The notes under the pieces: model-generated
The model's database searches: none
The model's input: the letters and a program-made list of their open reading frames with translations, nothing else
What the model was told of the DNA's origin: nothing
Made by a program: the position numbers and the translations under genes
Shown: positions 863 to 32,604 of the stretch, piece by piece
How the letters are laid out: each line of letters starts with the position of its first letter
Numbering within the stretch: the stretch's first letter is position 1
Assembly (NCBI RefSeq): GCF_020217425.1
Contig: NZ_CP084090.1
Coordinates: 1,798,001 to 1,862,000 of the forward strand
Length of the DNA stretch: 64,000 nucleotides
Reading direction: 5' to 3'
From: Halomicrobium urmianum
GTDB taxonomy: Archaea; Halobacteriota; Halobacteria; Halobacteriales; Haloarculaceae

Positions 863-976
863 TACGATACCGTCGGCGACACGCGACGCTCTTTTATGAG
901 CGTCGTACACCGGAGCCGGGGATACGGACGGCCCGCCACGCGCCGCTGTTTTCCGGGTTCGGTCCGAACGACCGGT

Positions 977-1183
977 ATGGTCGACACAGAGACGCTCCGA
1001 CAGGTCCTGCCCCACTACGTCGCGATGTTCCTGCTGGTGTTCCTCGTGCTGACGCTGGTCCGGGCGCTCGTGGGCGAGATCGGGTTCTGGGCGGAACTCG
1101 TCGTCATCGTCGCCGTCGTCTTCGCCTACCGACCGGTGGTGCAGCGGCTCGACGTCGCACCCGAGGCCTGGGAGCGCCAGTGA
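977..1183 (+). CDS. Small two-helix membrane protein, unknown function
   Basis: 68 residues starting MVDTETLRQVLPHYVAM. Two hydrophobic stretches can be seen: about residues 12-30 (VAMFLLVFLVLTLVRALV) and 36-52 (WAELVVIVAVVFAYRPVV), joined by a short loop GEIGF, so a hairpin in the membrane is likely. The C-terminus is polar (QRLDVAPEAWERQ). A longer reading from 896 exists, but its extra residues are arginine-rich and unlike haloarchaeal protein, so the internal ATG is preferred. I do not recognise the family; small haloarchaeal membrane proteins of this shape are common and uncharacterised. Confidence 0.65.
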   Translation: MVDTETLRQVLPHYVAMFLLVFLVLTLVRALVGEIGFWAELVVIVAVVFAYRPVVQRLDVAPEAWERQ

Positions 1184-1204: not shown

Positions 1205-1290
1205 CTGTAGTAGAAATCGAGCGCACTGACACACTCGAAGGGAACCCGGGACGCCCTTCGACGTGTAACTCGCTTCAGGTTCTACTACAG
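1205..1290. repeat. 86-base palindromic element, copy 1
   Basis: Nearly complete inverted repeat. The outer arms CTGTAGTAGAA and TTCTACTACAG pair perfectly. An inner stem TCGAAGGG/CCCTTCGA encloses a GC-rich loop. Between outer and inner stems lies GCGCACTGACACAC, identical in the second copy at 32519-32604, which has the same length. The right arm overlaps the response regulator gene and supplies its last codons and stop. See the finding on covariation. Confidence 0.8.
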
Positions 1291-1739
1291 CCGCCGTCCG
1301 CGTCGGGCGCGGGCGGGAGCGACGCGGTCGACAGCCAGAAGTCCGTGAACGCCTCGATCACGTCGGCGAACGCGTCCGGGTCGACGGGTTTGATCAGGCA
1401 GGCGTTGGCCTGCTTCCGGTAGGCGTCGATCAGGTCGTCCTCGGACTGGGAACTGGTGAGGACTACCACCGGGATCCGTCGCAGGTCGGGGTCCGCTTTG
1501 ATCGCCTCGAGGACGGCGTATCCGCTCGTCGCGGGCAGGTTCAGGTCCAGCAGGACGATTCTGGGACGGGGCGCGTCGTCGTACTCGCCGCGCCGGGCCA
1601 GCCAGTCCAGCGCCTCGTCGCCGGTCTGGACGACGTGGAGCCGGCCGGGGAGGCCCCGCGTCTCGAAGGCCCGCTCGATCAGGCGGACGTCGCCGTGGTT
1701 GTCCTCGACCAGCAGGATGTCCGCGTCCGTCCCCGTCAT
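1275..1739 (-). CDS. Single-domain response regulator (Rcp1/CheY-like receiver)
   Basis: 154 residues. A complete receiver domain: acidic pair in ILLVEDNHGD (about residues 8-17), phospho-acceptor Asp in IVLLDLNLP near residue 66, Thr/Ser switch in VVVLTSSQSE and conserved Lys in LIKPVDPDAF. The GDVRLIERAF start and long alpha4 region match the Rcp1-type regulators that partner with phytochrome-like or PAS histidine kinases in haloarchaea (family knowledge). No output domain follows. The final residues (GGCSRT and stop) are encoded by the right arm of a mobile-looking palindrome, so the original C-terminus was probably different. No cognate kinase gene is next to it. Confidence 0.9.
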   Translation of the reverse strand: MTGTDADILLVEDNHGDVRLIERAFETRGLPGRLHVVQTGDEALDWLARRGEYDDAPRPRIVLLDLNLPATSGYAVLEAIKADPDLRRIPVVVLTSSQSEDDLIDAYRKQANACLIKPVDPDAFADVIEAFTDFWLSTASLPPAPDADGGCSRT

Positions 1740-31671: not shown

Positions 31672-32444
31672 CCAGAAAGTCCTCGGCCCGCTCTCTGGAA
31701 CCACCGGATCGACTGCGAATACCCAGAAAGCCCTCGGACCGCTCTCCTGAACCGCTACTGACGATGCCAGCGAGACGTCGAAAGCCCTCGGCCCGCTCGC
31801 GTGTCGTTCGCTTCGCTCACTCCCGCTCGCTCTGACGAGGCCTCGCTACCGCTCGGCTTCGCGGCTCGCGGTCGCTGGGCGACATATCCTCGCTGCGCTC
31901 GAATAGTGGTCGCCCAGCGACTCCCCGTCGGCGCGAGCGGCCCTCGCCCTTTCATCCACCAGGAGACAGCTATTGCTCGCGCCGCGAGGGCGCGAGTGGG
32001 TGAGACCACCACTCCTCCCCGGTCGCGCCGCGCTCACGGCTTCGCCGTTCGCGCAGCGGTGGCGCGGAGCGCCACCCGGACGGCGCGACACGCGTCCTGA
32101 CCGCACTGCGGCCGAGAGCGGCCTCCGTGCCGCGTAGCGAGGGACCGAAGATCCCTCGGACCTCGCGGTGCAACCGCGAGAACCCGGGGACGGGCAGGTC
32201 TGCGGTTGCAGCTGGCGTCCTGCCGAGCGGAGCGAGGTGGTTCGAGAGAGCGAAGCTCTCTCGTCATGCCGAAAATCTTCGATTTTCGAGCACAGGGCTC
32301 GAAAGACGAGCGAAGCGAGTCTTTCGGTGGACGAAAGGGCGAGGCGCGGTCGACGAAGCCCGACCCCGCAAGCACCGCAGCGAACGCAGTGAGCGAGGAG
32401 CACAGCGTGGGTCGCGCGAGTCGAGCGGGCCGAGGGCTTTCTGG
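31672..32444. repeat. Intergenic palindromic element B, gene-free block
   Basis: Bounded on the left by three spaced versions of AGAAAGYCCTCGGMCCGCTC (near 31674, 31726 and 31779) and on the right by GAGCGGGCCGAGGGCTTTCTGG (ending 32444), the inverse of the left end. Inside are many hairpins, including GTTCGAGAGAGC-GAA-GCTCTCTCG (32240-32262) and CGAAAGAC...GTCTTTCG (about 32299-32326). Open frames on both strands are rich in Arg, Ser and Ala and look like artefacts. The remainder of 31589-32744 also holds the 86-base palindrome copy 2. Confidence 0.6.
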
Positions 32445-32518: not shown

Positions 32519-32604
32519 CTATAGTAGAAATTGAACGCACTGACACACTCGAGGGGCACCCGGGGTGCCCCTCGATGTGTAAATAGTTTCAATTTCTACT
32601 ATAG
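32519..32604. repeat. 86-base palindromic element, copy 2
   Basis: Arms CTATAGTAGAAATTGAA and TTCAATTTCTACTATAG, extended by one GCTG/CAGC-like flank; inner stem TCGAGGGGCACC/GGTGCCCCTCGA. The single-stranded part GAACGCACTGACACAC is the same as in copy 1 (1205-1290). Paired positions differ between copies in a compensating way. It lies in non-coding DNA about 140 bases before the promoter of the HTH regulator. Confidence 0.85.

Follow-up and report, generated by a model that had tools for sequence, protein, structure and literature searches.

The analysed window comprises 64 kb of the Halomicrobium urmianum genome (C1:1798001-1862000; the genome searched amounts to 4.25 Mb in 6 contigs). It contains two copies of an 86-bp palindrome, which were the only two elements that the covariance model detected there. 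Copy 1 (1205..1290, + strand; 81.8 bits with model R1, 65.1 bits with model R2) has C and G as its outer bases and a degenerate TA duplication, the left TA now reading TG (1206..1207) and the right one CA (1288..1289), as placed by homology to other copies. According to the parse that the empty copies of repeat family 2 suggest (see below), the core of copy 1 is the 80 bp in between (1208..1287, + strand; TAGTAG...CTACTA). Copy 2 (32519..32604, + strand) had the best R1 score of the genome (113.1 bits). On the same parse, its TA dinucleotides at 32520..32521 and 32602..32603 would be the duplicated target on either side of an 80-bp core (32522..32601, + strand), with CTGCTG-CTAG-CAGAAG as the predicted empty site. 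Copy 2 has the lower predicted folding energy (-52.7 kcal/mol, compared with -36.7 kcal/mol for copy 1), and uncompensated breaks are present in the outer stem of copy 1. Both copies had been described in a sequence-only reading of this DNA, and they were found as described there. The paired changes that it quoted between the copies and the unchanged GCACTGACACAC were likewise correct, but its description of GCACTGACACAC as unpaired was wrong in part, given that ACACA lies opposite TGTGT, and it passed over the stem breaks of copy 1. Upstream of copy 2, window positions 32160-32420 hold many short inverted repeats (gagagcgaagctctc, gaaaatcttcgattttc and similar).

Copy 1 lies between two convergent open reading frames. 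One encodes 95 aa (896..1183, + strand) and ends 21 bases before the element; the other is a response regulator gene (REC-type; 1275..1739, - strand) whose 3' end enters it. The codons for C, S, R and T and the stop codon lie within copy 1, and the preceding G codon straddles the element edge, which largely bears out the earlier proposal that the right arm provides GCSRT and the stop. The protein ends in LPPAPDADGGCSRT, whereas its element-free homologues (in the same genome and in two element-free congeners) carry unrelated short tails such as LPPCEDRDDE and LPGQGD.

Copy number, distribution and gene context

The sequence-only reading counted two copies, which is far too few. An initial genome search returned 40 scored places, and covariance model R1 (built from 34 sequences) gave at least 150 scored matches in the genome, each place being counted on both strands. 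Rescanning of the loci with covariance models resolved these into a family of at least 110 distinct copies. Our copy counts are lower bounds, as they derive from the best 150 candidates in the H. urmianum genome, the best 76 per genome in a set of 59 genomes of relatives and the best 11 per genome in a survey of 391 genomes. A whole-genome scan with a 16-base arm (up to 2 mismatches) gave 95 forward and 89 reverse matches, whereas the reversed control pattern gave none in either direction; the copy number is far above chance. Copy length was exactly 86 bp in 79/110 copies (whole range 63-87 bp), and the flanking columns were nearly devoid of information, beginning with the base next to the 86 bp, i.e., the flanks are unconserved and the borders sharp.

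In the relatives set of 59 genomes (H. urmianum included), model R1 detected the element in 15. With model R2, an element of the same length and fold was found in 159 of the 391 genomes sampled from the order, representing 41 of 87 genera. The copies from other genera measured 85 or 86 bp, though these are the best-scoring copies and are biased toward exactly 86 bp. Within the genus, genomes G001-G004 carry the element and G005-G006 do not. Exact 17-mer scanning of a genome contig collection hit 27 bacterial places and exact 16-mer scanning of viral contigs hit 4 places, in none of which R2 found an element. Plasmid and phage collections, from which near relatives may be left out, gave no element match.

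With a simple gene caller, 92/110 copies fell between two predicted genes; another 17 were at the edge of a locus, and 1 was within a predicted ORF. The orientation of the neighbouring genes (40 tandem, 26 divergent, 26 convergent) did not differ significantly from that around element-free gaps (45, 16 and 15, respectively). Among the 66 copies with an adjoining gene 3' end, 25 overlap that end, which indicates that stop codons are commonly provided by the element. The element is common among the genomes sampled, and it rewrites gene 3' ends. At another locus of the same genome (L019:1501-1586), the element supplies the last codons of a gene that we take to be pheT, and the homologue in G029 (L223) ends differently.

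Several arrangements of copies were also observed in other genomes. Tandem pairs of 86-bp copies, three bases apart, occur at G183:C36:43218-43392, G382:C15:51837-52011 and G382:C84:74446-74620. In G003, an 888-bp segment that contains an ORF is enclosed by two copies together with their flanks (L154:1501-2560), and G001 has a single copy and no segment (L071); this difference is a gain or loss between repeats.

Insertion sites and likeness to IS630 elements

A second dispersed palindrome of the genome (~80 bp, repeat family 2) exists in copies with and without the 86-bp element in its right arm. Empty copies read CAGCTACAACAG (CAG-CTAC-AACAG) or close variants, CTAC being intact in 7 of the 10 listed, and filled copies read CAG-CTATAG...CTATAC-AACAG. 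From this pattern the element parses as an 80-bp core (TAGTAG...CTACTA) plus a duplicated target TA, with the outermost bases belonging to the target. Insertion into CTAC would yield C-TA-core-TA-C, and the comparison of filled and empty sites, which the sequence-only reading had put forward as a check, points to a TA duplication in this one target family. The five copies at the repeat-family-2 site (L007, L008, L011, L014b and L126) all carry the target C. L007 sits at the identical site in the opposite orientation, so that its C appears as a left G. Elsewhere a right outer C was found in only 4/101 copies (outer bases were counted in 106 copies, after 4/110 outside 80-87 bp had been excluded). 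L014b/L163 has an empty paralogue, L164, the common flank being 94% identical over 159 bases. An initial reading of the flank statistics as "no target duplication" was discarded, because the outermost C-TA and TA-G are partly target.

CTAG is the context of 24 of the window's 988 TA sites but of 39 of the 66 copies with both TA dinucleotides intact (binomial p ~1e-45). TA duplication with a preference for CTAG is a hallmark of IS630 elements. Orthologous empty sites were also sought in congener G006, where, of up to 220 queries (the left and right flank of each of the 110 copies), 12 matched one 400-kb stretch with no flank pair, and loci from relatives gave no clean empty site. At one orthologous gene end, copies in H. 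urmianum (L138:1501-1586) and G002 (L159:1501-1586) share the insertion site and the orientation but differ in subfamily sequence. These are either independent insertions or a sequence replacement, and independent insertion is plausible because CTAG is rare.

IS630 elements of the relatives end in CTATAGTAG. One subgroup (G008, G019, G023, G027, G034, G053) has ends of the form CTATAGTAGnnnTTAGAA..TAATT.CTCAC, 11 of 12 examined ends carrying CTATAG, and the element arms (CTATAGTAGnnnnTTGAAA....T..CACAC) are in register with them; the remaining IS630 groups start differently and match the arms less well. Over positions 10-31, 20 arms from 10 genomes shared 270 identities with 11 IS630 ends (permuted mean 157, maximum 229; 0/500 permutations reached the observed value). 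The best single match was 26/31. A gapped test gave a sum of 358 compared with a shuffled mean of 265 and a maximum of 296 (n=300). Considered individually, the right arm of the H. urmianum element is significantly similar to IS630 ends (p 0.01, gapped test) and the left arm is not (11/22 positions, p 0.47). In G019, two copies of one IS630 element also lie at C-TA..TA-G.

With regard to the transposase itself, a search for PF13358 gave 0 matches in the H. urmianum genome, with 3/14 control genomes positive, and was also negative in the element-bearing genomes G002, G011, G020, G025, G029, G040 and G056. In the relatives set, which includes H. urmianum, 25 of 59 genomes were positive. The helper is therefore absent from the H. 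urmianum genome, undetected or lost. The element occurs in 4 of the 6 genomes with the matching IS630 subgroup and in 15/59 overall, a weak co-occurrence (hypergeometric p 0.03, the genomes not being independent).

A candidate parent transposon at L149, where two perfect arms are 1030 bp apart (the single internally interrupted copy that a one-arm pattern scan gave), was rejected: it is an IS5-type insertion sequence within an 86-bp copy (L149:554-1583; C1:1088604-1089633), with a 277-aa transposase ORF and a flanking 9-base repeat, AAACTAGTT. The second palindrome family (L163-L174 in H. urmianum, e.g., C1:2820889-2820967) is ~80 bp long and reads TGATACGGACTGTTGT...AACAGTCCGTATCA. Its intact right ends (..TCA) may form the TGA stop codon of an adjoining gene. 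The ends of this palindrome family are similar to those found in a different IS630 subgroup (G001, L188/L209: TGATACGGTCGTGC), and the family may therefore constitute a second group of MITEs.

Origin of the element and alternative explanations

Taken together, the 86-bp palindrome is very probably a non-autonomous IS630-type element (MITE). The sequence-only reading had offered a MITE-like element as one option, and this is supported by high numbers of dispersed copies, sharp 86-bp borders, filled and empty sites that imply a TA duplication, the CTAG preference, and arms in register with the ends of one IS630 subgroup of relatives. The element is short, lacks coding capacity and has terminal inverted repeats. 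A TA target duplication is indicated in both orientations within the one target family, repeat family 2, and the terminal repeats are related to IS630 ends, although the left arm of the H. urmianum element is not significant alone. A helper IS630 transposase was not found by PF13358 in the same genome, but this feature is not strictly defining and a helper may be lost. We infer that an IS630 transposase was the mover. Each ~30-base arm would be the counterpart of one IS630 end, with a G+C-rich hairpin between the arms. A DDE transposase acting in trans would bind both arms and excise the element, and insertion at TA, preferably within CTAG, would duplicate the TA and give C-TA-(80 bp)-TA-G as the 86-bp unit. 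In the case of copy 1, insertion into the end of the response regulator gene would have led to the element now supplying its last residues and stop.

The sequence-only reading would have accepted descent from one duplicated intergenic segment if only two copies and no empty sites existed. The resemblance of copies 1 and 2 is all that speaks for such common descent, whose probability is practically nil given that the flanks of at least 110 copies are unrelated. The second option it raised, a small structured RNA, here taken to include an element that forms RNA 3' ends (a terminator or processing site), selected at each locus, has in its favour a strong hairpin, the 25/66 overlaps with gene 3' ends and real covariation. 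Across 34 copies from 15 genomes, 89.1% of cells were paired in the named structure, and its covariation score was 0.335 (0.156 when shuffled, 0.047-0.089 when slid). Within the genome, the 79 exact 86-mers had 38 compensated cells where 13.4 were expected (maximum 23 in 300 permutations). Nonetheless, the intragenomic changes are for the most part disruptive (171 one-sided breaks plus 8 double changes that do not pair), i.e., single copies decay mostly without compensation, which speaks against an RNA maintained by selection at individual sites. In addition, neighbouring gene orientation showed no significant preference, the TA duplication and sharp borders indicate insertion, and Rfam 15 gave no family match for the element (a tRNA was the sole match in the window). 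We therefore consider a locus-by-locus RNA very improbable. The covariation is better explained by selection on source elements that remain able to transpose, or in part by template-switch correction, than by an RNA kept per locus.

Template-switch correction acts on imperfect palindromes during replication. It would create paired changes with no structural selection, and it concerns the covariation only and is compatible with a MITE. Joint changes of both arms in single copies of one genome (e.g., L086, L087 and L089) are in its favour. We regard it as a tentative possibility, considering that asymmetric internal-loop positions stay unlike between the arms across genera (GCACTGACACAC vs. TGTGTAAATAG in H. 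urmianum, GTCAnTGCACAC vs. TGTGTAAATCG elsewhere) and that correction would tend to erase them. Such lasting asymmetry would be expected of arms that represent the two distinct ends of a transposon, and it may mark two different transposase-binding ends. It is also conceivable, if unlikely, that the folded form is itself recognised (a cruciform or hairpin as transposition substrate) or that the element has acquired a function in the cell, for instance in shaping the 3' ends of genes. On this reading, the 86-bp length, the hairpin and the asymmetric arm motifs would have stayed near constant throughout the order while the stems diverged with compensation, even in genomes without a detectable transposase. 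Why a MITE keeps strict length and fold across an order makes the element a natural experiment. Another mover, either a different TA-duplicating transposase or the one that moves the small mobile repeats (SMRs) of Haloquadratum, would agree with the lack of PF13358 matches in the H. urmianum genome and with the ~80-110 bp, inverted repeats and unexplained mover of SMRs, as portrayed in part of their description (PMC3119063). It is nonetheless improbable, since the arms match one IS630 subgroup in register and the other IS630 groups less well, and since a TA duplication is indicated here while the SMR account, in its relevant part, reports none (PMC3119063).

Comparison with known short repeats

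An IS630-type MITE would link many haloarchaeal palindromes to a single mechanism, transposition at CTAG with TA duplication. A literature search found no paper joining halophilic archaea, miniature inverted-repeat transposable elements and IS630, and four arm strings had no match in paper texts of the open-licence literature.

The nearest known system in mechanism is RUP of pneumococcus, and the nearest in host and size are the Haloquadratum SMRs. RUP is outlined in a section of PMC2229807 as 107 bp long, with 108 copies, intergenic, TA-targeting and with inverted ends like those of IS630-Spn1. The likeness (~100 bp, ~100 copies, intergenic, TA target, IS630-like inverted ends) is thus close, but RUP occurs in one bacterial species, whereas our element is an 86-bp, near-full palindrome found in 41/87 sampled archaeal genera, with its helper missing from the H. 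urmianum genome. The SMR-A and SMR-B repeats of Haloquadratum walsbyi are similarly short (80-110 bp), haloarchaeal and multi-copy (up to tens of copies), with terminal inverted repeats. The passage describing them in PMC3119063 gives no target duplication and no related transposon, has SMR-A targeting PATE/IS605 palindromes and calls the mover enigmatic. Our element is set apart from SMRs, as there described, by its TA duplication and IS630-like ends, and it may bear on that mover.

Among bacterial MITEs, Correia/NEMIS and ERIC (127 bp) are alike in being short, TA-ended repeats with stem-loop transcripts, but they differ in host and length and, according to the part of the review devoted to them, had not been linked to any IS (PMC2229807). 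The Halobacterium elements sketched in a portion of PMC10264941 also differ from the 86-bp element, MITEHsal2 being 411-413 bp long with 6-8 bp duplications and ISH2 having termini related to ISH8. PATEs, terminal-only elements of IS605 type, are short haloarchaeal palindromes without terminal inverted repeats or target duplication, as characterised in one section of PMC3119063. Our element differs from them in its inverted repeats to the very ends and its TA duplication. PATE-like elements adjoin or interrupt several of its copies: at L122, L126, L135, L124 and L114 of the H. urmianum genome, IS605-type PATE-like ends adjoin the element after its first bases (CTATAG followed by TAGAAATTG), which suggests repeated PATE insertion at one point of the arm.
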